From the NCBI GenBank assembly GCA_001458075.1, contig LN899469.1, positions 2,619,501 to 2,683,500 on the forward strand: a stretch of 64,000 nucleotides of DNA, read 5' to 3'. The DNA comes from Idiomarinaceae bacterium HL-53. Lineage in GTDB: Bacteria; Pseudomonadota; Gammaproteobacteria; Enterobacterales; Alteromonadaceae. The position numbers and the translations under genes were made by a program. Within the stretch, counting starts at the first letter, position 1. Every line of letters starts with the position of its first letter. Positions 4,038 to 38,417 of this stretch are shown here, in pieces. The notes under the pieces were generated by a model. It made no database searches. It saw only the letters and a list, made by a program, of their open reading frames with translations, and was not told the origin of the DNA.

Positions 4038-4379
4038 TTAGTCAAGCTGGATACCGTGTCGTCTTAATAGCCACATGATGGAATCACGAAGCACATCAGG
4101 ATCGACAACCGCAGCCATTGCGCAAACACGAAAGCAAAATGGAGCCAATTCGTCATTTTGGATCCACGACAACACATCCTTTCGCAATCGAGTACTGACA
4201 CGACCGTCCAGCAATACTCGGATCGCATCCAATAGAATGCCTTCGCGTAACTGCCAGATTTCCGTGTCAGACCAAGTGACTGGGGCATCATCAAACTCAA
4301 ATAGAAATTCGAGCTGTGATGACGTGTGTTGATAGGACTGCTTTTGTGATGAAGGAGAATGGGCAATGCGCCCATTCAT
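4038..4379 (-). CDS. Small hypothetical protein coupled to radC
   Basis: A 113-residue protein whose ATG overlaps the radC stop by one base (TAATG), so it is almost certainly translated by re-initiation after radC. The sequence is acidic in the middle (FLFEFDDAPVTWSDTEIWQLREG) and helix-rich, with no signal peptide or membrane segment. I do not recognise the family. Its place between radC and the primase-like gene suggests a DNA-processing role for the backbone, which is inference only. Confidence 0.6.
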   Translation of the reverse strand: MNGRIAHSPSSQKQSYQHTSSQLEFLFEFDDAPVTWSDTEIWQLREGILLDAIRVLLDGRVSTRLRKDVLSWIQNDELAPFCFRVCAMAAVVDPDVLRDSIMWLLRRHGIQLD

Positions 4380-4876
4380 TAAAGATAACCGCGTTCGGCA
4401 AGCGAAACGCAGCCCTCGGATGCGACCACGACATGGTCAAGCGTTCGAATATCAACAAGTGACAAGGCGTCACGGAGTCGATGAGTTATGCGTTTATCAG
4501 CTTCACTGGGCTCAGGATCACCCGATGGATGGTTATGAACCAGTATCACTGCTGCCGCATTAAGCTCTAGCGCACGCTTTGTTACTTCCCTTGGATACAC
4601 GCTCGCCGCATCTAAAGTGCCTTTGAACAGCTCTTCAAATCGAATAACCCGATGCTTTGTATCAAGAAACAGCACTCCAAAGACTTCGTGCTCATACTCG
4701 TGCATCAGTGTTTGCAGGTATGAGAACGCCGACGATGGCTGTTCAATTTTGCGACCTTTACTCAATCGACCACGAGCAAGCTTGAGCGCCATATCCAATA
4801 TATCCGCTTCGGTCACCTGCTCAGGAACGATGTAAGTACCGGCTTCTTCGCCAGCTAAGAATTTTTTGTTTTTCAT
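4379..4876 (-). CDS. radC: RadC-family JAB/MPN protein
   Basis: The chosen ATG (MKNKKFLAGEE...) gives 165 residues and has GGAG six bases upstream; an in-frame TTG four codons earlier falls inside that site. The protein is the RadC core without the N-terminal helix-hairpin-helix of chromosomal RadC. The JAMM metal motif HNHPSGDPEPSEADKRIT is complete, so a metal-dependent hydrolase fold is likely. RadC-like proteins are common on mobile elements, but their biochemical role is unresolved. The leader has the GC-rich plus SD-sequestering double hairpin. The next gene overlaps the stop. Confidence 0.88.
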   Translation of the reverse strand: MKNKKFLAGEEAGTYIVPEQVTEADILDMALKLARGRLSKGRKIEQPSSAFSYLQTLMHEYEHEVFGVLFLDTKHRVIRFEELFKGTLDAASVYPREVTKRALELNAAAVILVHNHPSGDPEPSEADKRITHRLRDALSLVDIRTLDHVVVASEGCVSLAERGYL

Positions 4877-4880
4877 AGGA

Positions 4881-4940
4881 GTCTCCAAAAAAACGGAGAC
4901 GAACCCATGCCCTGACGGGGACGGAATCGTCCCCGCAGGG
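4881..4940 (-). promoter_or_regulatory. Double-hairpin leader of radC with sequestered RBS
   Basis: Minus-strand reading: hairpin 1 (4910-4940) has arms CCCTGCGGGGACG / CGTCCCCGTCAGGG around a short loop. Hairpin 2 (4881-4900) is GTCTCC-GTTTTTTT-GGAGAC, whose 3' arm is the Shine-Dalgarno sequence GGAG ending a few bases before the ATG at 4876. With hairpin 2 formed, ribosome access would be blocked. Hairpin 1 lacks a T tract, so it is not an obvious terminator. Confidence 0.65.
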
Positions 4941-4957
4941 TGGTAAAGTTGATGTGG

Positions 4958-6613
4958 TTACTGAATTAACAGTTGTTGTGTTACTTCGAATAACTCACGC
5001 TTCAGATCTTTGACGTCATTAATCACAATGCTTTGAGGAAAGAATTTCTCAACACTGCGTGTTTGAATCCCGATCCCCAGCAGCTCAAAGCCACTGCGTC
5101 TGCACCGGTCAACAATGTCATGCGTGGCAGCCCAATCATCTGGGTCACCATCCGTTAGCACTATCATTAGCTTTCGCTTCTGTTTTTGCGCTAACAAACT
5201 GTTTGCCGCAAACCACATTGCTTGTGCCATAGGGGTACAACCTCGTGGTTTTTGGTCAAAACAGGCGGCCCGATGTCTAACCGATTGCTTGGGCAATAAC
5301 GCGATAGAAACTTCCTGATGAATACCAGGAAAATAACTGACCGCAGGTACAACACCCGGTATGCCTTCCAGTGCCATGGCCAAAGCCAAAGCGGCTTCAT
5401 TGGCAACATGAAAGTACTTTCGATTACCTTCGCCAATGGGTTTACCCATTGAACCCGATATATCGACCAGCAAGTGCACAGCAGCATTAGGCGCAATGCG
5501 AGGTTGCCTTTGAATAAACAATCTCGATTCACCTGCTTGTGAGGCGGCAAGACGATGGGTTGCAACTCGAAGACCGTGCCGTTTGGCATGATTCCGATTG
5601 TCCTGACTGGACTGAACCATGCCCCTAAGTCGGGCTCGAATTTGAGCAGACTCCGACGCCGATAAGGTCAAGATGGCCTCATCACCCAACATAGCCTGCT
5701 CTGCTTGGGGCAAACTGAGTGGAGTGACGCCCTGATGTCCTTCAGCTTGTTCCGACAACACTTCTGCCACTTGTGCGAAGGTATCGGGTTCAAACTGAGC
5801 GGCACTGGCCTCTAAGGCTTGTCGCAAATTGTCAGCTTGATCAGAGTTATCTGAATCACCCGTTTCAGCAGCATCCCCCGTTGCAGACGAGTCTGTTTCT
5901 GGGGTTTGACTATCACTACTGTTATTGCTGTCATTACTCGCATCTTGTCCAATGTCATTACCGCTATCAGCATCCGACTCATCCTGTGGTGGACGAGATT
6001 CTTCTTCCAACATGGCAACGATGGCATCGACAAGTTTTAGCACTTCACCTGTAGACGCCAGGCTAGGCACTGCTGTCAGCATGGCGCTTAACCGGCTCAT
6101 CGCTGCGGCAGGAAAGAGTTGTCTCACTCTTTCATCAACTGTTTGATACAAAGGCGTCAGCGCTTTCTGACTCAGAAAGTGGCATCTCAAGCGGAACAAC
6201 AACCATGCTTGCAAGTTAGATGCAGGCTCAGGCTGTTCAGGTACACACATTTGCTGTGTGTCTACCATGTACTCAATCACTTGCGAAATACTGCGCCTGG
6301 TTCCGGGGTAATCCTTTGCCAATTCGTTTTCAATGCGAACATCCTCAATAATATTGAGAAGTGCCTTACGGATCGGTTTGGACGACGCCTTCTGCACCAT
6401 GTCAAAATTGGTATGCCGAATATGCGCCGCTTCATGAGCCAGGTAACCCCAAGCTATCTGTTGATAGTGTGGGTCGTCTGGGTTTGCTGTTGGGATCACA
6501 ATCCGCTCACCATCGGTAAACGCATCTTGTCCTTGAATAAGCACCTTCACACCAAACTTTTCGCCATAAGCGGCGGCAACGATTGGCAGTGCGTTTTTTA
6601 ATGGATGATTCAT
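4958..6613 (-). CDS. CobT-like VWA protein with N-terminal HExxH motif
   Basis: A 551-residue cytoplasmic protein. Near residues 56-62 it has AHEAAHIRHT, an HExxH zinc-peptidase-like motif. Residues ~205-270 are a low-complexity acidic Ser/Asp/Glu linker. The C-terminal ~200 residues form a von Willebrand A domain with MIDAS motif DISGSM and LTDGDPDD. This is the layout of CobT-like partners of CobS/MoxR AAA+ ATPases, and a CobS-like ATPase is encoded at 9004-9963. The pair probably forms a remodelling complex rather than a cobalt chelatase, since no cobalamin genes are nearby (inference). Whether the HEAAH motif is catalytic is unknown. Confidence 0.8.
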   Translation of the reverse strand: MNHPLKNALPIVAAAYGEKFGVKVLIQGQDAFTDGERIVIPTANPDDPHYQQIAWGYLAHEAAHIRHTNFDMVQKASSKPIRKALLNIIEDVRIENELAKDYPGTRRSISQVIEYMVDTQQMCVPEQPEPASNLQAWLLFRLRCHFLSQKALTPLYQTVDERVRQLFPAAAMSRLSAMLTAVPSLASTGEVLKLVDAIVAMLEEESRPPQDESDADSGNDIGQDASNDSNNSSDSQTPETDSSATGDAAETGDSDNSDQADNLRQALEASAAQFEPDTFAQVAEVLSEQAEGHQGVTPLSLPQAEQAMLGDEAILTLSASESAQIRARLRGMVQSSQDNRNHAKRHGLRVATHRLAASQAGESRLFIQRQPRIAPNAAVHLLVDISGSMGKPIGEGNRKYFHVANEAALALAMALEGIPGVVPAVSYFPGIHQEVSIALLPKQSVRHRAACFDQKPRGCTPMAQAMWFAANSLLAQKQKRKLMIVLTDGDPDDWAATHDIVDRCRRSGFELLGIGIQTRSVEKFFPQSIVINDVKDLKRELFEVTQQLLIQ

Positions 6614-6669
6614 GGGAGTCTCCTAATCATCAGGGGGAATACTCCCTCAGCGGGAGCGTTTCCCCGCTG
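6614..6669 (-). promoter_or_regulatory. Double-hairpin leader of the VWA gene
   Basis: Minus strand: hairpin 1 (6648-6669) is CAGCGGG / CCCGCTG around an 8-nt loop. Downstream, GGGAGT (6646-6641) can pair with ACTCCC (6619-6614) next to the ATG, enclosing AGGAGA, so the start region is folded. A smaller competing hairpin GGGAGTATTCCC shares the same upstream arm, leaving two alternative structures. Confidence 0.55.
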
Positions 6670-6682
6670 GAAATGTGAGTGT

Positions 6683-7123
6683 TTAAACCTGTGCTTTTAG
6701 CTTATCCAGGTCGTATTTTTGACCTAACAAAGCCACCAATTGAGCTGGACTCTCGTGCTGCTCAAATGACGTTTTAAGCTGGTCTAAACTCAGGATGTCA
6801 TCCAATGTCAGACCGTACTGGTCTTGTAACTGAGTAGACACCTCGTGTTGATATTGCAGCCAGGCCCGCTCATAAGCGGTTTGCTGCAATACCATGTTTG
6901 GAACAAATACCATGGCCGTTACCCAAGCTCCATGTGCGTCCGCATCTGCGATCAGCACAGGGTTCTTGGGGATCACGACACTATGTGTTGAGTACGACCG
7001 TTGTACTAACGTTCGACAACACGCCACTTCTGGTATCGATTCACTTTCAACCGCATCAGTCACACCACGAAAATGTGCTTCAAACTGCTTTAGTTGGCTG
7101 GGGTTATGGATGGTTGATTGCAT
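6683..7123 (-). CDS. Hypothetical backbone protein, 146 aa
   Basis: A soluble 146-residue protein, preceded by AAGAGG seven bases before its ATG. It has a hydrophobic core strand (PVLIADADAHGAWVTAMVFVPNMVL) and a helical, glutamine- and glutamate-rich C-terminal half. I do not recognise the family. It sits between the DUF3150 gene and the VWA gene in the cluster with the CobS-like ATPase, so it may belong to that complex (inference from neighbourhood only). Its leader has the double-hairpin arrangement. Confidence 0.6.
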   Translation of the reverse strand: MQSTIHNPSQLKQFEAHFRGVTDAVESESIPEVACCRTLVQRSYSTHSVVIPKNPVLIADADAHGAWVTAMVFVPNMVLQQTAYERAWLQYQHEVSTQLQDQYGLTLDDILSLDQLKTSFEQHESPAQLVALLGQKYDLDKLKAQV

Positions 7124-7128
7124 AATTT

Positions 7129-7172
7129 CCTCTTACATAGTTCAGAGGACATGCGCCCTTCAGGGCAACATG
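7129..7172 (-). promoter_or_regulatory. Double-hairpin leader, RBS in the downstream stem
   Basis: Minus strand: hairpin 1 (7150-7172) has arms CATG..GCCC / GGGC..CATG. Hairpin 2 (7129-7148) has arms CCTCT / AGAGG; the AGAGG arm is the Shine-Dalgarno sequence of the gene starting at 7123. The sequence is unrelated to the neighbouring leaders although the architecture is the same. Confidence 0.6.
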
Positions 7173-7184
7173 CCCCCAAGGACG

Positions 7185-8138
7185 TTAGAAATAAAATGAG
7201 TTTGGTACAGTCGAACCAAGGTTTGGTCTGACGGTTGGTTGTGGTATTGCACGTAAGTTATCTGCCTGAGCAGATACCGGCTGTGCGGGTTTAGGTTCAG
7301 GTTTGGGCATCAGTTGTCTGATATCCAATTGACCTTCACCGTGCATTCTCATCTTGTCTGGATCAGACAAAATTAAAATGGTCGCCATCAGTTCGTGATA
7401 GAGATTGTCTGTCACAGGGCCGGTCTTCGGCAGACGAACAAATAAATTGTCCATCGCTTCAACCATTGGCTGAACTCGATGATCCAGGAAGGACAAACCA
7501 TCCAACTTGTCTCTTAACCGTTTGAGAGGATTAAGGGCTCGCTGGCTGATTTGATTCTTACCTGCAACGGAACGCTCAAACAGTTCATTGGCATCACGAG
7601 CCACCTCCCTAAAGAGGGTGTGTCCCATACCATTGACCTTGTCATCTAAGCCACCAGCTTGGTCAGCCGGTTGCATTCGATAGATGGCATAATCGAACTG
7701 AAGACGTTGTTCCACGTCTTCGATGGGTGATAATGCACGTCGGATTGCATCTGCAAATTCCGGGTGTTTCGCAACCCAGTCAAACGTCACCTGATCATAG
7801 TTGTCCAAGAACAACTGCTTGCACTGCGCAAACTCCTGACCGATCCGGTCAAGCTCAGGAACAATCTGATCAATTCGATCTTCAGGGACGGCATAGCCAC
7901 CTAAAAACCGTACACCGACTTGCTCACACAAGCGCTGCGCTTCTTTCTTAAGCCTTTCAAAGTTCGCCAATGCCTCTGGGTCGCAAATTTTTTTACTCCC
8001 TAAGCTGGCAACATCCTTCGGAGGAAGTTGGCTGCCATTGGCTAATCTGAAATCTTCAGGCCTTAGCTTTTTTCTACCGCTCCAGATGGAACAGTCGATG
8101 TGACAAATCAAAAGTTTGTCGAGGGTTTGAATACTCAT
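7185..8138 (-). CDS. DUF3150 family protein
   Basis: A 317-residue soluble protein beginning MSIQTLDKLLICHIDCSIW, typical of DUF3150 proteins encoded beside CobS-type ATPases in ICEs and phages. It is largely helical, with a Pro/Gln-rich C-terminal linker (PKPEPKPAQPVSAQ) ending in the tail NSFYF. The linker plus aromatic tail looks like a flexible docking arm. Exo (10173) and the WGR-like protein (8237) end in similar tails. No enzymatic motif is visible. It probably works with the CobS-like ATPase and VWA protein (inference). Confidence 0.75.
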   Translation of the reverse strand: MSIQTLDKLLICHIDCSIWSGRKKLRPEDFRLANGSQLPPKDVASLGSKKICDPEALANFERLKKEAQRLCEQVGVRFLGGYAVPEDRIDQIVPELDRIGQEFAQCKQLFLDNYDQVTFDWVAKHPEFADAIRRALSPIEDVEQRLQFDYAIYRMQPADQAGGLDDKVNGMGHTLFREVARDANELFERSVAGKNQISQRALNPLKRLRDKLDGLSFLDHRVQPMVEAMDNLFVRLPKTGPVTDNLYHELMATILILSDPDKMRMHGEGQLDIRQLMPKPEPKPAQPVSAQADNLRAIPQPTVRPNLGSTVPNSFYF

Positions 8139-8139
8139 A

Positions 8140-8200
8140 GTGCATCCTCATGCGAGATGGGGACGCACCACTCCCAACAGGAGCAATGGCCCCCGTTTGG
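8140..8200 (-). promoter_or_regulatory. Double-hairpin leader of the DUF3150 gene
   Basis: Minus strand: an imperfect GC-rich hairpin (8172-8200, CCCAAAC.. / ..GTTGGG) is followed by an 8-bp stem GTGCGTCC / GGATGCAC (8140-8168, one G:U) that captures the GGA of the GAGG Shine-Dalgarno sequence just before the ATG at 8138. Confidence 0.6.
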
Positions 8201-8236
8201 GTGGTAGTAGTTGACGCGCTAATGGCAATACCACTA

Positions 8237-9004
8237 TCAGAAATAGTAATTTTGCGAATCAGGCGACGATTGGTTGAGATCAATTTTCACAGGCATTAAG
8301 TCCAGTGCTTCAGCTATCGGGCGAACCCGCTCTAAATCACTGCCTAGCAACCGCAATACATCTTTTTCCAACTTCAGTTGGTCGGATACTTCTATCCCTT
8401 CAGGACTCGCTACTGTGAGCGAACACAATGGTGGTAATTGACGCTTAAAGGCCAGTAACAGCAACAATGGCCACGGGCCATCATCCGTGTTAACAATGCC
8501 AGCGCCTTCACCTGACACCATGCTGATTTGATTGGTACTAGGTAATCCGCTTTTGCAAAAGCCTAATGACCATTCTCCAATCCTGACCTGCTTATCATCA
8601 ATCACAGCCAAGCCATAGGCTTCAAGCAGCTTTGCCATATCGAACAACGCTTTTTGCGCCAGCGAGATTTGGCCATTGACGTCCTTGCGAGTACGAAACT
8701 CCCAACTGACGTTCTTGGCGCACGCGACGCTATCTAGCGCATTTGAGAGTTCAAATGGCCGCCCTTGATGATCAATGCCGACTTGTCCAACCAATCGATA
8801 ACCCTTGTTGATTTTCTCATTGATTCGTCGGTCTGCTTCAGCGTTAGGATCAGTCGAGTCAATCAATCGCTGCTGCGACAGTTGACCTGCTTTTCCAAAT
8901 CGAACTTCAATCTCCTGGGTATCTGATCCAACGTAAATAGCCCATTCTTTGGCTGTCCCATCAGAATGACTGTAACGGTAAAGAGCAAAGCACTTTTCCA
9001 TCAT
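8237..9004 (-). CDS. WGR-like N-terminal domain protein
   Basis: About 255 residues, starting at an ATG overlapping the cobS stop (TGATG), with the cobS-terminal GGAGG as its binding site, so it is translationally coupled. An ATG one codon later is equally possible. Residues ~5-75 (CFALYRYSHSDGTAKEWAIYVG... VRFGKAG... ADRRINEKINKGYRLVG) resemble a WGR-type domain, a nucleic-acid-associated fold. The rest is unrecognised. It ends SQNYYF, echoing the -FYF tails of two neighbours. The role is probably as a DNA-linked partner of the CobS ATPase (inference). Confidence 0.65.
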   Translation of the reverse strand: MMEKCFALYRYSHSDGTAKEWAIYVGSDTQEIEVRFGKAGQLSQQRLIDSTDPNAEADRRINEKINKGYRLVGQVGIDHQGRPFELSNALDSVACAKNVSWEFRTRKDVNGQISLAQKALFDMAKLLEAYGLAVIDDKQVRIGEWSLGFCKSGLPSTNQISMVSGEGAGIVNTDDGPWPLLLLLAFKRQLPPLCSLTVASPEGIEVSDQLKLEKDVLRLLGSDLERVRPIAEALDLMPVKIDLNQSSPDSQNYYF

Positions 9005-9963
9005 CAATCCTCCCAGTGGTCACCGAAGACATCAGCGGCAATACGGTGAATGGCTTCACGTTGCTCCAATTCAGCACGAGCCGTCAAAGACCGAACCAGT
9101 GCATACTCCACTGCGTTAGGAGCGCCTTTAAAAGCAAGTGTTAACTTTGCCCAGCGCACCAAGGTCCGAGTGGACATGGTGATACTGAGTTCTGCACCGC
9201 CATCCGCGCCCCCAATAAAAAGACGACGAATGTCACCAGCCACCTTCACCATTTTTTGGCGAAAGACCTCTGGTAAGCCCGGCGCAACGTTCTCCAGAAT
9301 GGCTTCCTCTACAGATGGCTCTGCATAGGTCGCTTCAATGATTCTAAAGCGATCAAGAAAAGCCAAATTCTGTTGAAGCACACCTTGATACAAGCCCGTC
9401 TGGTCACCGCTGCCCGCACTGTTGCCGGTAGCGATAAAACGAAACTTGGTATGTGGCATGATGATCTCACCGCCATTTTGTGCGATGACCAACGGGGCAC
9501 CTTCCAAAATGTCATTGAGCCCAGCCAGTTCAGCAGGCTCAGCAAGATCCATTTCATTAATGATCAGCAAATGGCCATGCTTGACAGCCAGTGCCAGCGG
9601 TCCATACACAAAGGTCATGTTGCCATTAACCAGTGTGTGGTGACCGATAAGATCGGACAACTCCAATCGACCATGCGCAGTAATTTGCTGAACAGGCCAA
9701 TTCAATCGAGAAGCAACTTGGCAAATTAGCGAGGTCTTACCGCATCCCGTGGGGCCTGTAATATACAAACCGTCACCGTCGGGGTTAGACAAGAACGCCA
9801 ATACGTCACGTAAGTCTTCTTTTCTAAAAACATACTCGTCCTTGCGAACGGGAATGTTTGGATGGGTAGTGTCGGCACTAAATCCTTCCAGAACGAAAGC
9901 ATCAGGAGCCGGGACATTAAACGTTTGATTCACTTGAACCAAAAATGGGGATTGTTCAGTCAT
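9004..9963 (-). CDS. cobS: CobS/MoxR-type AAA+ ATPase
   Basis: The start at 9963 (MTEQSPFLVQ) is favoured by GAGG six bases upstream; upstream in-frame starts lie inside the hairpin leader. The 319-residue protein has Walker A GPTGCGKTS, a Walker B-type LLIINEMD (Asn-Glu rather than Asp-Glu), sensor 1 FIATGNSAGSG and an arginine-finger region (FLDRFRIIEATY). The family works as a ring ATPase with a VWA partner, present here at 4958. In SXT-type ICEs the cobS gene is a conserved backbone gene of unclear role; cobalt chelation is unlikely given the context. Confidence 0.85.
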   Translation of the reverse strand: MTEQSPFLVQVNQTFNVPAPDAFVLEGFSADTTHPNIPVRKDEYVFRKEDLRDVLAFLSNPDGDGLYITGPTGCGKTSLICQVASRLNWPVQQITAHGRLELSDLIGHHTLVNGNMTFVYGPLALAVKHGHLLIINEMDLAEPAELAGLNDILEGAPLVIAQNGGEIIMPHTKFRFIATGNSAGSGDQTGLYQGVLQQNLAFLDRFRIIEATYAEPSVEEAILENVAPGLPEVFRQKMVKVAGDIRRLFIGGADGGAELSITMSTRTLVRWAKLTLAFKGAPNAVEYALVRSLTARAELEQREAIHRIAADVFGDHWED

Positions 9964-9969
9964 GGTAAA

Positions 9970-10025
9970 CCTCATTTGTTTTAACGAGGCCCCATGCCCC
10001 AACAGGGAATGAAGTCCCCGTCGGG
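9970..10025 (-). promoter_or_regulatory. Double-hairpin leader of cobS
   Basis: Minus strand: hairpin 1 (9997-10025) pairs CCCGACGGGG with CCCTGTTGGG, including two G:U pairs. Hairpin 2 (9970-9989) pairs CCTCG with the TGAGG that is the Shine-Dalgarno sequence for the ATG at 9963. The segment 10026-10145 upstream must hold the promoter, since a hairpin terminator closes the exo transcript at 10146-10163. Confidence 0.6.
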
Positions 10026-10145
10026 TGGTGTGTTGATTTTGGTATGGCTGTGTATGTAAGAGTTCAGCTCGCTCTATCATTCGTACCCAGCATTGGCTAC
10101 GAGTGAAACTGCTTTCTGATGCACTCGATGTAAGCGCATGAGAAA

Positions 10146-10163
10146 GGAGCCGAAATCGGCTCC
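10146..10163 (-). terminator. Probable terminator after exo
   Basis: Minus strand GGAGCCGA-TT-TCGGCTCC, an 8-bp GC-rich stem ten bases after the exo stop, followed by TTTCT. The T tract is short, so termination may be partial. Confidence 0.55.
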
Positions 10164-10172
10164 AAGTGAACG

Positions 10173-11189
10173 TTAAAAATAAAATGAGCTCGGCGAGTCA
10201 CCTGGCAGAACCAAGTTCTCTGGCTCAAGGCTGATTTTGATTGGTGTTTCAACGGGCTGCTCTGGCTTATTGGTGCTGATACGCAACCGCTCTTGTGGCG
10301 CTTTTCGGTAAGCGGCTAAAACCTGTTCGTCCAGTTCGCCTAATTTATCGGTGGCCAATTGCTTATAGTCCACAGTGCCCGCCATCATGTAGCGGCTGAG
10401 TTTGACCCCAGCATAATCCGCATGAGCGTAATTACCCATCATAGCGACCAATTTTGACTGAGCGTCTCGCATTTCCTCTTTCAAAGATTTAATGTGATTT
10501 TCCAGTCGGACAACTTCGGAATGTGCTGAGCAATACTGGCGAGACAGCGATGTCCAGCGGTATTGGGCTTCACCCTTGGGAACAAAACAATCTTGTTCAG
10601 GGCATTTTGACGGTTCTTTTTTGGTCTGTACTAACTCCCAAAACTGAAGCGCTGTTTCTTGCAATTCAGTTAAGAACGCCGCGTCTCGTTGTATTTCAAA
10701 CTCAATCAGTTGATCCTCAAAATAGAATACCAACCAACCACGCGTGCTATTGGCGACCAGTATTTGATGCTGAACTTGCACCCAATACAACTGGTACGCC
10801 TCACTTTGTTCTCTGTGAGCTTGCACATCCTCAAAAACTGACTGGCAAGGACATTTCAGTTCAACGGGTTCGCCCGCATCGTTGATGCCATCAAAGCTGG
10901 CCCGAAAGATTGCGTTATGATCGGCTTCAGCACATAACGGCAGAAGAAAGTCATTGTGCGCATTCTCAAATGCTCGCCTTGCTTGAGGCTCCAACCGTAT
11001 ACCGCGAAGCACATTGGGATTATTCGACAGGTCTTCCGGTAATACGAATCCAGTTTTTTCTGCCCATAATCGCCAAGGTGTTTTGTAGGGTGAACGCCCC
11101 ATAATAATTGGGGCTTCAGATGCCGTAACCCCTGCAATGCGCCACTGGTGCCATGCAGGAGTACGTTGTGATAGGTCGATAACCTTCAT
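10173..11189 (-). CDS. exo: Lambda-Exo/YqaJ-type alkaline exonuclease
   Basis: A 338-residue protein. The start MKVIDLSQRTPAWHQWR is a typical YqaJ recombinase entry (QRTPAWHQWRIAGVTASEAP), and the catalytic region follows with VELKCPCQ (the ExK pair of the PD-(D/E)XK fold). It should degrade one strand of double-stranded ends to feed the Bet annealing protein at 11475. In SXT/R391 elements this exo-bet-ssb set drives recombination between co-resident ICEs (established for the family). The C-terminal half has a helical region, then a linker ending SPSSFYF, a tail shared with two neighbours. AAAGGAGG precedes the start. Confidence 0.9.
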   Translation of the reverse strand: MKVIDLSQRTPAWHQWRIAGVTASEAPIIMGRSPYKTPWRLWAEKTGFVLPEDLSNNPNVLRGIRLEPQARRAFENAHNDFLLPLCAEADHNAIFRASFDGINDAGEPVELKCPCQSVFEDVQAHREQSEAYQLYWVQVQHQILVANSTRGWLVFYFEDQLIEFEIQRDAAFLTELQETALQFWELVQTKKEPSKCPEQDCFVPKGEAQYRWTSLSRQYCSAHSEVVRLENHIKSLKEEMRDAQSKLVAMMGNYAHADYAGVKLSRYMMAGTVDYKQLATDKLGELDEQVLAAYRKAPQERLRISTNKPEQPVETPIKISLEPENLVLPGDSPSSFYF

Positions 11190-11192
11190 ATT

Positions 11193-11241
11193 GCCTCCTT
11201 TGAGGGGAGACTCCCCCGAAGGAGAGAACTCCCCTTCAGGG
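11193..11241 (-). promoter_or_regulatory. Double-hairpin leader of exo
   Basis: Minus strand: hairpin 1 (about 11215-11241) pairs CCTGAAGG with CCTTCGGG. A tight stem CCTC-AAA-GGAGG (11193-11204) includes the exo Shine-Dalgarno sequence; a longer alternative uses CTCCCC upstream. Confidence 0.5.
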
Positions 11242-11249
11242 TTAAGTGG

Positions 11250-11393
11250 TTACTTTGCAGCTTGTGCTAACGCTGTTTGGTGCTGAACAACACTTGCTTG
11301 AACCGAATCAATTGCCGCTATACCGGCTTGAATCGAACCTAAGACAAGGGCAACAACCAATACCAAGCGAAAAAGTGAGGCTGATTTAGTCAT
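11250..11393 (-). CDS. Small membrane or secreted protein, 47 aa
   Basis: An ATG at 11393 opens a 47-residue frame ending TAA at 11250. Residues ~7-30 (LFRLVLVVALVLGSIQAGIA) form one hydrophobic segment after a basic start (MTKSASLFR), followed by a short polar helix rich in Gln/Ala. It could be a single-span membrane peptide or have a signal sequence. Support for a real gene is strong: it has its own double-hairpin leader with a perfectly placed GGAG, and it occupies the exo-bet gap exactly. I do not recognise a homologue. Confidence 0.65.
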   Translation of the reverse strand: MTKSASLFRLVLVVALVLGSIQAGIAAIDSVQASVVQHQTALAQAAK

Positions 11394-11452
11394 GGAAGAT
11401 CTCCAAAAAAAGACGAGACCTTCCCCCTGACGGGAGAATAATCCCGCCAGGG
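11394..11452 (-). promoter_or_regulatory. Double-hairpin leader of the 47-aa gene
   Basis: Minus strand: hairpin 1 (11425-11452) pairs CCCTGGCGGGA with TCCCGTCAGGG. Hairpin 2 (11394-11424) pairs GGAAGGTCTC with GAGATCTTCC (ten pairs, one G:U), burying the GGAGA Shine-Dalgarno sequence directly before the ATG. This is one of the clearest copies. Confidence 0.65.
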
Positions 11453-11474
11453 TTAGTAAAATGAATGCGTGGCG

Positions 11475-12293
11475 CTAAGAAGCTAAAGGCTGTGTGAGCG
11501 CTTTGGCTGCTTGTTGCTGTGCATTAAATATTTCTTGTTTCGCAAACGTCAGTTCAACACCTTGAAAATGTTCATTGGCATATTCCAATGCACTATTCCA
11601 AGCGTTTGAAGCTTCCGCCCGCTCGATAAGCTTGTAAACAAGCCCTCGGGTTCGGGAGTCAACTTGCTCGGGTGGAATCACAGATGGCTCAACAACATGT
11701 GTTGCTTGGCCTTCGATAATTCGCTCCGCTTCGTCTTGATCGAAAATTCCCACAAAGCCAAACGCAATGCGGGAACACTGGATCATGGATTTATGTCTTA
11801 GCATTCGCTTAGTGTGCGTCTGCCATGGACCATCTACCCGGTAAGGGCCATTTTTGCCGTTACCTTCAAAAGGCGGTCGATAGACTTCATCCAGATACTC
11901 AGTGATTTTGACTGGGTGCGAACGATCGCGCCGATAGATGATGCATTCCATCCATTCAGGGCATTCTTTCGCGCCATCCAGTGAGACTTTGGTTTCTGAA
12001 GTCTTAAACTCCATGCCATCAAACTGGTCGTGTTGATTGATGATGCGAGACCATCCATCGACACCTACGACTGGGATAATCCCAGCTTGCTTATCAGGGA
12101 ACGCAAAAATCTCTTTGGTGAAAGGGTTCAAGCCGTACTGATCTGCAACCACCAAGAGCGCCATCATCTGCTCATTGGTCGGTGCACTACCGTCACGTTG
12201 CTTGAATGCTGTTGCTTTTAGGGTATCGAACAACTTGTTTGGATCGACACTAAAGCGCTCAGCAAAGCGTTGGATTAGCTTTGGTTTTTCCAT
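11475..12293 (-). CDS. bet: Bet/RecT-family single-strand annealing protein
   Basis: The start at 12293 (MEKPKLIQRFAERFSVDPNKL) is chosen because GGAG lies just upstream; an upstream in-frame TTG falls inside the leader hairpin. The 272-residue protein has the phage Bet signature: LKATAFKQRDGSAPTNEQMMALLVVADQYGLNPFTKEIFAFPDK, then VGVDGWSRIIN and the conserved KRMLRHKSMIQCSRIAFGF. Bet coats 3' tails made by Exo and anneals complementary strands. In SXT-type ICEs it makes hybrid elements. The Exo-47aa-Bet-SSB order shows an intact recombination module. Confidence 0.92.
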   Translation of the reverse strand: MEKPKLIQRFAERFSVDPNKLFDTLKATAFKQRDGSAPTNEQMMALLVVADQYGLNPFTKEIFAFPDKQAGIIPVVGVDGWSRIINQHDQFDGMEFKTSETKVSLDGAKECPEWMECIIYRRDRSHPVKITEYLDEVYRPPFEGNGKNGPYRVDGPWQTHTKRMLRHKSMIQCSRIAFGFVGIFDQDEAERIIEGQATHVVEPSVIPPEQVDSRTRGLVYKLIERAEASNAWNSALEYANEHFQGVELTFAKQEIFNAQQQAAKALTQPLAS

Positions 12294-12297
12294 TTTG

Positions 12298-12353
12298 GAC
12301 TCCGACAATCAAAGTGGGAGTCTGCCCCTGACGGGAAAGTACTCCCGGCTGGG
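12298..12353 (-). promoter_or_regulatory. Double-hairpin leader of bet
   Basis: Minus strand: hairpin 1 (12326-12353) pairs CCCAGCCGGGA with TCCCGTCAGGG with two mismatches. Hairpin 2 (12298-12322) is a perfect 6-bp stem GACTCC / GGAGTC, the GGAGTC arm being the bet Shine-Dalgarno sequence three bases from the ATG. Confidence 0.65.
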
Positions 12354-12372
12354 TTAAAGCGTTTTCGCTCGG

Positions 12373-12792
12373 TTAAAAATCTGGTTCAGGATAAGTTTGC
12401 GCCCAATTAGCTTGGGAGCCCGCATCATCCGCCGCTGATGGCTCAGATGTTTTGTTCACACTATCAAGAAGCAGAAACTCGTCCGCGTCCACTTCGGTCA
12501 ATCGATGCTTAATACCATCTTTCTCCCATGAGCGCGTGCGCTGAGGCCCTTGAACAAAAAGCTTCGCTCCTTTTTGGATTAAATCTTTTGCTCTTAGCCC
12601 TAACTTAAATCCACCACGATCTCGAAAAACGACCCGATGCCATTCCGTATGCTCTTTGAGCTCATTGGATTGACGGTCGCGCCATTTCTCAGAAGTGGCC
12701 AGCGAAATGCTGGTCACTAAATCACCTGATGGATAGGCTCGCGTCTCTGGCTCAGAGCCAACGTAGCCTATGAGTGTTACTTGGTTTTTCAT
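12373..12792 (-). CDS. ssb: Single-stranded DNA-binding protein
   Basis: A 139-residue OB-fold SSB: MKNQVTLIGYVGSEPETRAYPSGDLVTSISLATSEKW followed by LRAKDLIQKGAKLFVQGPQRTRSWEKDG. It ends TYPEPDF, a shortened version of the acidic -DDDIPF tip that binds DNA-processing partners in bacterial SSBs. It protects transferred or recombining single strands. The start has GAGGAG eight bases upstream. The gene follows 12808-13134 with a 15-nt gap and lacks its own hairpin leader, so it probably relies on that upstream gene for translation. Confidence 0.92.
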   Translation of the reverse strand: MKNQVTLIGYVGSEPETRAYPSGDLVTSISLATSEKWRDRQSNELKEHTEWHRVVFRDRGGFKLGLRAKDLIQKGAKLFVQGPQRTRSWEKDGIKHRLTEVDADEFLLLDSVNKTSEPSAADDAGSQANWAQTYPEPDF

Positions 12793-12807
12793 GATGTTCT
12801 CCTCGTC

Positions 12808-13134
12808 TTAGTTGAACTCTGTGCACACAGTCGTTTCTGCCCTGCTGGGCAAAGAAGGCTGACGGCGCAGATAGGTTGGTATTTCGAGTAAAGCCATATC
12901 GTACTGATGTGGCTCTTTGTAAAATGCAGATGTCAAACGGGGCATACCAGGAGCTTTAGGCACTGCCATTGGACGACGTTTTGGTGTTGGTGTGAGCAAA
13001 CGCTTGATTTGAGTAAGGACAAATCGAAACGGGCGCACGCTTTGACGGGCAACCAATCGCAAAAGCGACCAGCTCAGTTTTGCAAGCAACATAATGCCTG
13101 CGATTTGGATAATAAATCCGAAGATATATTCCAT
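12808..13134 (-). CDS. Small inner-membrane protein, first gene of the ssb operon
   Basis: A 108-residue protein with an N-terminal hydrophobic helix (residues ~4-22, IFGFIIQIAGIMLLAKLSW), then a very basic segment (RLVARQSVRPFRFVLTQIKRLLTPTPKRRP) suited to lie on the cytoplasmic face, and a proline-rich C terminus. I do not recognise the family. It is the promoter-proximal gene of the minus-strand cluster and has the most perfect SD-sequestering hairpin (11 bp). Function unknown. Confidence 0.65.
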   Translation of the reverse strand: MEYIFGFIIQIAGIMLLAKLSWSLLRLVARQSVRPFRFVLTQIKRLLTPTPKRRPMAVPKAPGMPRLTSAFYKEPHQYDMALLEIPTYLRRQPSLPSRAETTVCTEFN

Positions 13135-13135
13135 T

Positions 13136-13198
13136 GGTGACTCCTTAATTTAGTTTTGAAGGAGTCACCCCCAACTGGGGAAAACTCCCCCAGTTGGG
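13136..13198 (-). promoter_or_regulatory. Double-hairpin leader with perfect 11-bp stems
   Basis: Minus strand: hairpin 1 (13170-13198) has arms CCCAACTGGGG / CCCCAGTTGGG. Hairpin 2 (13136-13169) has arms GGTGACTCCTT / AAGGAGTCACC, fully complementary over 11 bp, with the Shine-Dalgarno AAGGAG inside the 3' arm. This is the strongest example of the leader type found through the cluster. Confidence 0.7.
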
Positions 13199-13501: not shown

Positions 13502-14104
13502 ATGGCCCAAGCAAAACCCAATTACTCAAAACCCATCTTTGAACAATCATTCACAATTAACAGCTTACAGGCGCAACGTGTCGTTGACCGTGTTTTTAGA
13601 CGGACGGTCAGTGCGCTTTACGGAATCGATGTCATCCTGCGCATCATTGGCGATGAGAACGAAATTGATGAAGTGGAACAGATCATTAGCCAGTTGATCG
13701 AAGATTGCGCTAAGGCGGTGGACAACGAACAAGCTCGTTTGGACAAACTGATGGAGTCCAACGGCATCGATGAAGTACCTGACTACACCGACCCGATTAC
13801 CTTCAACGCCAAAATCAGCTCGCCTCAGGTTGGCCAGTTTGTCGGCTTAGTTCGCAAACTCGATGCGTTGATGATCTCAATGGACACACTCTGGTTATCT
13901 AGCGTGCTTAGCAACAAGCAACGTGTTGATGGCAACTACGCATGGCAACAGCGCATTATCAAACTTGCACGACGCATTATTGATATCGAAATTAGAGCAC
14001 GAAAATCAGCCCAAGCTAAGGGTAAAGAAGCAGAAGTTGAGCAAGCGGTGCCTTCAACCGATGACGATATCACTGAAGAGGAAACAGATACCCCCGCCAA
14101 CTAG
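13502..14104 (+). CDS. Conserved ICE backbone protein (s063-type, DUF1845-like)
   Basis: A 200-residue soluble protein, start MAQAKPNYSKPIFEQSFTINSLQAQRVVDRVFRRTVSALYGID, largely helical with an acidic C-terminal tail (DDDITEEETDTPAN). It matches the position of s063 in SXT, the plus-strand gene separating the recombination cluster from traN and bordering a cargo hotspot. The resemblance to DUF1845-type ICE proteins is from memory and moderate. AGGAG lies eight bases before the ATG and an intrinsic terminator follows. Function unknown, perhaps regulatory or DNA-binding. Confidence 0.7.
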   Translation: MAQAKPNYSKPIFEQSFTINSLQAQRVVDRVFRRTVSALYGIDVILRIIGDENEIDEVEQIISQLIEDCAKAVDNEQARLDKLMESNGIDEVPDYTDPITFNAKISSPQVGQFVGLVRKLDALMISMDTLWLSSVLSNKQRVDGNYAWQQRIIKLARRIIDIEIRARKSAQAKGKEAEVEQAVPSTDDDITEEETDTPAN

Positions 14105-36266: not shown

Positions 36267-38417
36267 TTAACGCTTAGCGTAAGCGGTAAACAGAACCGTT
36301 TCCCCCTCATCAAACTGGCATTCGTCACTGGCCGAGATCCCCCGAAGCAGCTGTCCGGCTGGAATGCCATGCGCATTGGCGACTTGGCGTAAGGTTTGAA
36401 TCGTGACACGAATACCATCGGCACTATGATCCACGTCTGGGTAATCGCCATCGGTCAGTAAGATGGGCAAATCTTTCACAAAATTAACCATCTGTTGGCG
36501 CTGCGCGTGTTTGGGGTCTGTACTTGAGTGCGCATTGGGCGCAATCGGCTTTTGCTTACGCTCCGCTCTTGTGGCGGGCTCCTTTGCTTGGGCATTGGTT
36601 GTCTCAGTTCGACTCGGACGCTGTGAAGCCTCATCGTTCTGAATTACTGACACTGATTCTGCGTCTTGATTGGAAAGGTCTATCAGTGCAGTAAGCCCTT
36701 TAGAAATTGATACGTTCAGCAGCAACCCTTGCTCCTGAACGCCATCTTTCGTAGTAACAGTTCTGGCCTTACGTGTCGGGTTTACAGGATCTAGTTCAAG
36801 CCAGTCTAATCGACTGAGTTCAGCAAGCAGTTTTCGTGGAGCACACCAGGGTCTTACTCCATCGGGATAGCGGATCAGTATCTGTTCACCAACCATAACC
36901 AACGTACTGCTGGCCTCTGGGAGCCACGCCAAAGATTCAGGCAGATTCAATGCTTCTTCATCGTGCTGGTTTACGTTATTTGAGATAGCGCCATCATATG
37001 AATTGTTAGGCTTTTCATATCCATCACCCGGAACGTTTTCATTTTCCTGAAGGTGATTAACATCACTGGCATGACGAAGTTCATCATCTTGCTCGGACGA
37101 GTTTGTCGATGGTGACTCATCCGATTTTCTATGTTCGATTGATGATGACGCTTCAGGCAAGTCTAAATGCTCACTGGAGCGACTCTGAGGCTCTGCTTCT
37201 GTTTGCTGTGTTGCTTCCCACTCAGATTTGTTAAACAGTGTCACACCACTTGGTACATTCGAGCTGAACAATAAATCGGCCTCAGATATATGCAGCATGG
37301 GTAGCCAGATTGGCTTGCCGTCTTTGATCAGTACTTCAGGGGCAAGGCTTTCATATCGCTCATTGGAGGCGGATTTAGTGGCCAATCCTCGCTCAATGAG
37401 GATGTCCGCAAGGGTATCGGGATCTCTTGGAATGCCAGGTATCTTGTCTTTGGCCAATAGCTGAATGATGTCCTTAGCCGCGCTTTTCCAAACCAGGTAA
37501 AGATTGGTTGATTGATTCGATTTTCGTATCCAAACTCTGGCATCTCGCTGATTGACCAACCACTGGGAACTGGCAAGCAATCGCCTCATGGCATCAAGTA
37601 GATAGCGTTCGACTGGGACACCAAGGGCATTGTCGTCAACGGAAATTCGTTGAGCTTTCAGGTCTCGCTGGACACTGGTTTGGTCAGCTTCAATAACCAA
37701 TTTAGACAGGACATGCTCGGGATCGGTATTGCCAATTGCTTCAAGCATGGCTTGCAAAATTTCAGGTCCCGGCTGGGTTAACCAGGCGAGCAACTCAGGT
37801 GTCATCACCCGGTTTAATACCAAAATTGAAAATTGCTCGTGCCGCTTGCACCGTCCGTCGCGCCAGCGAATGAAATAGCGTTCAATGCTGTTGTTACTGG
37901 TCCACTGGGATAAGGTTTCTAAAAAAGGGTTCCATTGATAGCGTCCATCTTCATCCGTGATGGACAAGTCTGAAACGGGCTTACCAATATCATGGAACAA
38001 ACCGCCAAGAGCCGCTGCAACACGCCACCTTGGCTCTAGCTCTTTTTTCTCAACCGGTGTGCCACTGGCAACAAAGATGATCCCTTCAGCTGCTTGTGCC
38101 GCCCAGAAAGCAACTTCCAGCGAATGACGTAATAAACCACCAGCACCACTGTGATGATGAAGCTCAGAAGCTGGCAGTAAGTGGACATAAGCAGCCAGAT
38201 GGTCAATGCAGGGCTGAATCAACCTTTGAAAATCACGCTGGTTAAAGCCAAGTACCTGGCGCAGTTTGGCAATTAGCTCGTCTTGTGTGGACTGCAAATC
38301 CTCAGGTGACGCAGCTGGCAACCCCTTCAGGAATGGCGGATAGCGTGGAATTTCCGCATCCAGTTGTGATGACAGCTCTGGTAGTGCTTTGGTTTGAAAA
38401 AATAGGTTTTTGAACAT
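36267..38417 (-). CDS. traI: TraI relaxase, MOBH type
   Basis: A 716-residue protein with the TraI_2/MOBH domain: ELHHHSGAGGLLRHSLEVAFWAA near residue 85 (HHH with downstream HD), GGLFHDIGKP near 138, and catalytic tyrosines expected in the same N-terminal half. The middle is acidic and low-complexity (~400-480); the C-terminal DUF1528-type region follows (SLAWLPEASSTLVMVGEQILIRYPDG). It nicks oriT (56189-56446 here) together with MobI and leads the strand into the recipient. The leader has two hairpins covering the ribosome site. Confidence 0.92.
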   Translation of the reverse strand: MFKNLFFQTKALPELSSQLDAEIPRYPPFLKGLPAASPEDLQSTQDELIAKLRQVLGFNQRDFQRLIQPCIDHLAAYVHLLPASELHHHSGAGGLLRHSLEVAFWAAQAAEGIIFVASGTPVEKKELEPRWRVAAALGGLFHDIGKPVSDLSITDEDGRYQWNPFLETLSQWTSNNSIERYFIRWRDGRCKRHEQFSILVLNRVMTPELLAWLTQPGPEILQAMLEAIGNTDPEHVLSKLVIEADQTSVQRDLKAQRISVDDNALGVPVERYLLDAMRRLLASSQWLVNQRDARVWIRKSNQSTNLYLVWKSAAKDIIQLLAKDKIPGIPRDPDTLADILIERGLATKSASNERYESLAPEVLIKDGKPIWLPMLHISEADLLFSSNVPSGVTLFNKSEWEATQQTEAEPQSRSSEHLDLPEASSSIEHRKSDESPSTNSSEQDDELRHASDVNHLQENENVPGDGYEKPNNSYDGAISNNVNQHDEEALNLPESLAWLPEASSTLVMVGEQILIRYPDGVRPWCAPRKLLAELSRLDWLELDPVNPTRKARTVTTKDGVQEQGLLLNVSISKGLTALIDLSNQDAESVSVIQNDEASQRPSRTETTNAQAKEPATRAERKQKPIAPNAHSSTDPKHAQRQQMVNFVKDLPILLTDGDYPDVDHSADGIRVTIQTLRQVANAHGIPAGQLLRGISASDECQFDEGETVLFTAYAKR

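Follow-up and report, generated by a model that had tools for sequence, protein, structure and literature searches.

Putative bistable leaders before the recombination-block genes of an SXT/R391-type conjugative element and their counterparts in related plasmids

The DNA analysed here (hereafter the window, the whole stretch of 64,000 nucleotides (nt) at positions 2,619,501 to 2,683,500 of contig LN899469.1, assembly GCA_001458075.1, from Idiomarinaceae bacterium HL-53) is an integrative and conjugative element (ICE) of the SXT/R391 type. Its minus strand carries a block of genes encoding S089, Ssb, a RecT-type Bet, a 46-codon open reading frame (ORF), a YqaJ-type Exo, a CbbQ/CobS-like AAA ATPase, an ORF product, a DUF3150 protein, another ORF product, a CobT/VWA protein and RadC, and more than 40 genomes of marine and enteric bacteria contain matching loci of SXT/R391-type ICEs. 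In SXT, there is one long operon, transcribed from Ps089 under SetCD (PMC4344509). A leader with two hairpins precedes 9 of the 11 block genes, and the sequences of these leaders appear to encode, in addition, an alternative helix that is incompatible with both hairpins. This conserved helix, which was not seen in an earlier note on this DNA, is the most informative feature of the leaders. The genes that lack a leader, ssb (start 12792) and the ORF at 9001 (regions 12373-13134 and 8237-9963), either start within 16 nt of the preceding stop codon or overlap that codon. Because most of the non-overlapping genes in this one operon block have their own leader, expression could be controlled for each gene separately. 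The 46-codon hydrophobic ORF (11253-11393, minus strand, between bet and exo), for which a search for family matches retrieved none, has a full leader of its own.

Each of the nine leaders folds into a GC-rich hairpin 1 and, after it, a hairpin 2 that contains or closes over the Shine-Dalgarno (SD) sequence of the gene. The earlier note had placed such leaders on the minus strand before the starts at 13134, 12293, 11393, 11189, 9963, 8138, 7123 and 4876, as well as 6613, and each of them is present and folds as described there, with the second stems quoted correctly. The start at 6613 had been singled out because its closing stem encloses the SD sequence instead of using it as an arm; the outer stem GGGAGT/ACTCCC does enclose it, but the exception is smaller than claimed, given that in most orthologous copies of this CobT/VWA leader, which read CCTAATGATTAGGAG, CCTAA/TTAGG pairs part of the SD sequence. 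Compared with dinucleotide shuffles, the 75 nt upstream of the nine starts yield folding z-scores from -2.7 to -7.6 (median -5.1), whereas the median is -0.3 at 36 other gene starts of the window (Mann-Whitney p 2e-5), and the median probability that the SD sequence is unpaired is 0.08, compared to 0.39 at the other starts (p 2e-4). Against 100 shuffles of the same upstream bases, the burial of the SD sequence is modest leader by leader (3, 12, 84, 18, 10, 13, 1, 25 and 5 shuffles are equally or more buried), so that the case rests mainly on the fold as a whole and on its conservation.

The same plan, with different bases, is found before many genes of the corresponding block in the IncC plasmid pS21, in a plasmid of Vibrio sp. 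dhg and in a Methylobacter plasmid. A descriptor scan over annotated starts, with a background of 17 hits among 873 shuffled leaders, identifies 23 leaders in the IncC block at 53-82 kb (23 of its 39 genes) and one likely false hit in traC, 15 leaders in the Vibrio block at 13-29 kb, 16 hits in Methylobacter (one of these, 9972, was judged false, and one leader was counted in two overlapping loci) and, at the strict threshold for the alternative helix, 5 leaders in the window. After removal of false and duplicate hits and addition of four further ICE leaders, 61 leaders were kept. ORF-based scans detect leaders also in Marinobacterium, Azomonas, three Vibrio species, an uncultured proteobacterium, Halomonas and Vreelandella, in plasmids of Halomonas, Comamonas, V. 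gigantis and Rhodanobacter, and in several further genomes; the count in GC-rich loci is approximate because chance hits are more frequent there. In total, more than 100 leaders were found. As in the window, 6 of the 15 leaderless genes of the IncC block lie within 15 nt of the preceding gene or overlap it. The earlier description of the system as element-wide does not hold, since in the window and in the IncC and Vibrio plasmids the leaders are confined to a single block (bet, exo, cobS, DUF3150, VWA and their neighbors). No double-hairpin leader precedes the tra genes of these elements, and the plan is absent from the bet/exo/DUF3150 clusters of Moellerella, Citrobacter youngae and the Proteus plasmid pPm60.

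Each leader can be divided into four consecutive segments, with 1:2 forming hairpin 1 and 3:4 forming hairpin 2, where segment 3 is the anti-SD arm and segment 4 holds the SD sequence. Segment 1 (the 5' arm and loop of hairpin 1) is also complementary to segment 3; for example, in the DUF3150 leader of the Vibrio plasmid, AAAGGGCATATC pairs with GGTATGTCCTTT over 12 base pairs. In a swap test, the duplex energy of segments 1 and 3 from one leader (native) was compared with that of segment 1 from one leader and segment 3 from another leader of the same element (swapped); the segments were set from the 1:2 and 3:4 folds alone and the genes were picked without regard to 1:3. The native duplexes are more stable in the Vibrio plasmid (-14.2 vs -8.3, n=15, z -7.6), in IncC (-13.8 vs -9.6, n=26, z -8.3), in Methylobacter (-14.9 vs -9.2, n=11, z -6.1) and in the ICE of the window (-10.2 vs -8.0, n=8, z -2.8, p 0.004), and, with annotated starts, in Halomonas (z -6.6), Comamonas (z -3.6), V. 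gigantis (z -3.4) and, weakly, Rhodanobacter (p 0.03). Four further loci are left out of this count, as they had been chosen by their 1:3 pairing. The permutation treats the leaders of one element as exchangeable, which is appropriate for gene-specific pairing but takes no account of ancestry. The control pairings 2:3 and 2:4 give no consistent signal in four elements (2:4 in the ICE is marginal, p 0.024) and were dropped as candidates for the alternative pairing; a 1:3 test limited to the loop, partly spoilt by empty duplexes, is significant for Vibrio alone. Of the segment 3 positions in the spans common to both helices, 43 are paired exclusively in 1:3 and 13 exclusively in 3:4, which indicates that 1:3 is not a by-product of a resemblance between segment 1 and the SD arm.

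Comparison of distant elements points in the same direction. In the cobS leader, the 1:3 helix reads GGGCGCA/TGCGCC in IncC and GGGCACA/TGTGCC in Vibrio sinensis, and in the DUF3150 leader GGGCGCA/TGCGCC and GGGCACA/TGTGCT, respectively; these are double changes from G-C to A-U in 1:3, whereas their effect on 3:4 is a wobble pair (cobS) or a weaker helix (DUF3150). Sequence alignment of the leaders does not respect the helices. Compensatory changes, which the earlier note proposed to seek in relatives, are few within the ICE family because the leaders of more than 40 related ICEs are at least 95% alike (95-99% identity to ICE loci), and are found instead between IncC and V. sinensis. The 3:4 arms, too, pair better with their own partners than with the arms of other leaders, in accord with the earlier statement that pairing is kept while the bases differ, although this test is biased by the definition of the arms through folding; with fixed windows, the p-values are 0.065 (ICE), 0.01 (IncC), 1e-4 (Methylobacter) and 1e-4 (Vibrio). 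The idea of an SD-sequestering family under selection for structure is supported and extends to distant elements. Judged from predicted pairing, the leaders encode two mutually exclusive folds, one closed (1:2 and 3:4, with the SD sequence hidden) and the other built on 1:3, and the swap tests show that the predicted 1:3 complementarity is kept by selection in many elements despite the changing bases.

Table 1. Gene block and leader parts in the window (hairpin 1, segments 1:2; hairpin 2, segments 3:4; alternative, segments 1:3; MFE, minimum free energy fold)
Feature	Position	Strand	Sequence and remarks
Gene block	4379..13134	-	s089, ssb, bet, small ORF, exo (YqaJ), cobS (CbbQ/AAA), ORF, DUF3150, ORF, CobT/VWA, radC
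s089 (gene 12808-13134), hairpin 1	13170..13198	-	CCCAACTGGGGGAGTTTTCCCCAGTTGGG; assigned by fold
s089, hairpin 2	13136..13169	-	GGTGACTCCTT / AAGGAGTCACC; SD AAGGAG (13141-13146) in 3' arm
s089, alternative		-	GGGGGAGT/ACTCCTTC
bet (gene 11475-12293), hairpin 1	12326..12353	-	CCCAGCCGGGAGTACTTTCCCGTCAGGG; site of the attenuator reported upstream of bet, as summarized in PMC4542580
bet, hairpin 2	12298..12322	-	GACTCC / GGAGTC with SD
bet, alternative		-	GGGAGT/ACTCCC; present in MFE of reconstructed leader
46-codon ORF (11253-11393), hairpin 1	11425..11452	-	
46-codon ORF, hairpin 2	11394..11424	-	GGAAGGTCTC / GAGATCTTCC; SD GGAG at loop edge
46-codon ORF, alternative		-	GGCGGGA/TCTCGTC; read by eye
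exo (gene 10173-11189), hairpin 1	11214..11241	-	
exo, hairpin 2	11193..11211	-	GTCTCC / GGAGGC with SD
exo, alternative		-	AGGGGAG/CTCCCCT; read by eye
cobS-like AAA ATPase (gene 9004-9963), hairpin 1	9998..10025	-	
cobS-like, hairpin 2	9961..9996	-	CATGGGGCCTCGTT / AATGAGGTTTACCATG; SD and ATG in 3' arm; 1:3 duplex -15.2 kcal/mol
DUF3150 (gene 7185-8138), hairpin 1	8173..8201	-	
DUF3150, hairpin 2	8137..8171	-	GTGGTGCGTCCCCAT / ATGAGGATGCACTAT; 1:3 duplex -14.5 kcal/mol
Gene 6683-7123, hairpin 1	7154..7184	-	begins right after preceding stop codon
Gene 6683-7123, hairpin 2	7128..7149	-	TCCTCT / AGAGGA with SD
Gene 6683-7123, alternative		-	GGGGGCATG/CATGTCCTC; 9 pairs, 7 non-G-U; read by eye
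CobT/VWA (gene 4958-6613), hairpin 1	6648..6669	-	
CobT/VWA, hairpin 2	6614..6646	-	outer GGGAGT/ACTCCC around CCT(A/G)A..TTAGG with part of SD
radC (start 4876), hairpin 1	4910..4940	-	
radC, hairpin 2	4874..4909	-	CATGGGTTCGTCTCCG / TGGAGACTCCTATG
radC, alternative		-	GGGGACGA/TCGTCTCC; -15.1 kcal/mol

Energy calculations for complete leaders, growing leaders and barriers were performed with the few bases between the two hairpins replaced by A. At full length, the closed fold is favored, by a median of 12.3 (ICE), 9.2 (IncC), 6.5 (Vibrio) and 7.8 kcal/mol (Methylobacter), and the SD sequence is more open in the 1:3 fold than in the closed fold. When the leader is cut just after segment 3, 1:3 is preferred in most cases, more so than in chimeras, and the MFE path of the growing leader runs from hairpin 1 through 1:3 to the closed fold in 45 of 60 leaders.

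The comparisons establish the predicted burial of the SD sequence, the encoded alternative fold and the conservation of both. The conserved 1:3 helix suggests that each leader is a bistable switch and not just a lock, and the leaders are probably default-off translational attenuators, each setting the translation of the one gene behind it. In the complete leader, pairing of 1 with 2 and of 3 with 4 would hide the SD sequence, and the stability of this closed fold would keep translation low by default, in agreement with the reported attenuator before bet; in the alternative fold, 1 would pair with 3 and segment 2 would fold on itself, freeing segment 4. Anything that prevents or opens hairpin 1 would favor 1:3 and expose the SD sequence; candidate triggers are a ribosome finishing the preceding gene near hairpin 1, a protein bound to the conserved AACCC at the start of hairpin 1, or the order of events during transcription. 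Such control could act gene by gene on top of the SetCD/AcaCD promoter. A choice between read-through and transcription from a gene's own promoter, which the earlier note had offered as a possible trigger, fits poorly with a block that holds one sigma-70-like site, located on the opposite strand, where chance alone would give 10.4, and that is described as part of one long operon from Ps089 (PMC4344509). More broadly, the chances appear about even that the leaders form a widespread and previously undescribed class of bistable RNA elements (R-R'-R leaders) that precede most recombination-block genes of conjugative elements and serve as a common gene-by-gene translational switch answering one shared signal.

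Several observations weigh against a switch. The 1:3 signal is weaker in the ICE of the window than in the plasmids, and 1:3 lies on the folding path in only 5 of the 8 ICE leaders; in some leaders, the SD sequence is still partly paired in the 1:3 fold. The barrier from hairpin 1 to 1:3, calculated with nested moves only, is approximately 18-22 kcal/mol and is high in both directions, so that the switch would not open quickly on its own and the fold reached may depend on events while hairpin 1 is being made. Blocking the outer 5' strand in silico flips only 30 of 60 leaders. A search by gene content for a trans-acting factor found no block gene that is both common to the leader-bearing loci and absent from the leaderless ones.

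The excess stability of the closed fold at full length and the slow conversion of hairpin 1 to 1:3 by nested moves are also compatible with static translational locks, in which hairpin 2 lowers translation to a fixed level and hairpin 1 insulates it from upstream ribosomes or protects RNA ends; the bet attenuator, as summarized in PMC4542580, is likewise described as hindering expression. This explanation, which is tenable but tentative, leaves it unaccounted for why segment 1, including its loop, complements segment 3 in many elements with different bases, whereas the control pairings do not. A specific trigger for the proposed bistable attenuators would be translational coupling, with the ribosome that ends the preceding gene keeping hairpin 1 open, so that a gene is translated only if its predecessor is. 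The stop codon lies 0-57 nt before hairpin 1 in 43 of 58 leaders, and the flipping of half of the leaders by a blocked 5' strand is in line with such a trigger; however, in the remaining 15 leaders the annotated stop is over 110 nt away (the annotation may be incomplete), s089 is the first gene and has no predecessor, and only about a third of the stops are near enough for a ribosome to touch hairpin 1. As a general explanation coupling is doubtful, and it is plausible as the trigger for part of the leaders.

In AT-rich elements, the 1:3 helix resembles the hairpin of an intrinsic terminator or transcription attenuator, with a T run following it in 6 of 15 Vibrio and 6 of 11 Methylobacter leaders, and hairpin 1 could then act as the antiterminator. 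The T run is found in only 1 of 26 IncC and 2 of 8 ICE leaders, scanning the window for terminators gives no call at any of the nine leaders, and one terminator per gene would silence the end of a long operon; transcription attenuation is an improbable general mechanism, and termination is not the common function of the leaders. Palindromic DNA repeats of the REP or attC-like kind, dispersed from gene to gene and folding as RNA only incidentally, would account for the many leaders of one plan within one block but are highly improbable given the lack of conserved sequence beyond short C and G runs, the strict placement before start codons with the SD sequence inside, the maintenance of own-partner pairing despite differing bases, and the lack of further near copies of the hairpin 1 sequence outside the block in the same genome.

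A part of this family has been noticed before. The earlier note knew of no description, yet, according to a review, the bet gene of SXT is preceded by a strong translational attenuator, which inhibits bet/exo translation despite high transcription and is noted also in IncA/C plasmids (PMC4542580, citing Garriss 2013, J Bacteriol 195:1991). The leader at 12294-12353, between ssb and bet, occupies the position of the SXT attenuator, as judged by gene content and 95-99% identity to ICE loci. The review, so far as it describes such elements, has one, before bet, whereas here there are nine leaders, many element families and a conserved alternative helix. A literature search for leaders of this kind yielded the bet attenuator only, and the original report, known through the review, may say more on other genes; relative to the review, the leader family, its spread and the alternative helix are new. 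Searches of Rfam, with gathering score and E-value, retrieved no relevant match in the window, and the only hits in the IncC, Vibrio and Methylobacter loci were of intron type, apart from one weak snoRNA hit (Methylobacter).

Like the erm/cat-type translational attenuators, these leaders sequester the SD sequence in a 3:4 hairpin and contain segments with two exclusive pairings, the alternative one freeing the SD sequence (only partly in some leaders). They differ in that segment 1, and not segment 2, pairs with 3 and in that one copy is present per gene along the operon; no stalling leader peptide was identified, leader ORFs not having been systematically searched, and the nearby feature in most leaders is the preceding stop codon. 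In kinetically controlled leaders, such as those of the MS2 maturation gene and hok mRNA, the folds of the growing chain differ from the final fold, which hides the start. Both traits are shared by the predicted folds of the leaders described here, where the MFE path alone suggests a kinetic role and the calculated barriers make rapid spontaneous switching unlikely.

Among the major carriers of antibiotic resistance are SXT/R391 ICEs and IncC plasmids, and their mosaic structure is the work of the recombination genes in the block. If the proposed attenuators are real, an RNA switch before 9 to 26 genes per element would constitute a new layer of control above the SetCD/AcaCD activators and would explain why bet and exo are highly transcribed and poorly translated. 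Control of a whole operon by a separate leader for each gene is unusual among bacteria, and the leaders provide dozens of natural variants for testing how one RNA design works.

Some additional features were detected in the window and in the related loci. A terminator-like hairpin, GGAGCCGATTTCGGCTCC-TTTCT (10163-10146, minus strand), lies in the 209-nt gap between exo and the cobS-like gene, and the minus-strand starts at 38417 and 25222 are preceded by single strong SD-containing hairpins (z -3.8 and -3.6) without a matching hairpin 1. The s063 gene (13502-14104, plus strand), divergent from s089, has homologs near the block in the IncC, Azomonas, Vibrio and Halomonas elements and a weak match in locus L103, which has an annotated AcaB-family regulator. 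Among the relatives of the block that lack the double hairpin, a Moellerella plasmid (locus L069) shows a different repeated leader, with an AT-rich stretch such as AAATCTATTAA directly before the SD sequence, at 7 of 15 starts (3590, 4570, 5348, 6951, 8881, 10037 and 13280), and similar AT-rich leaders are found in loci L103 and L102.

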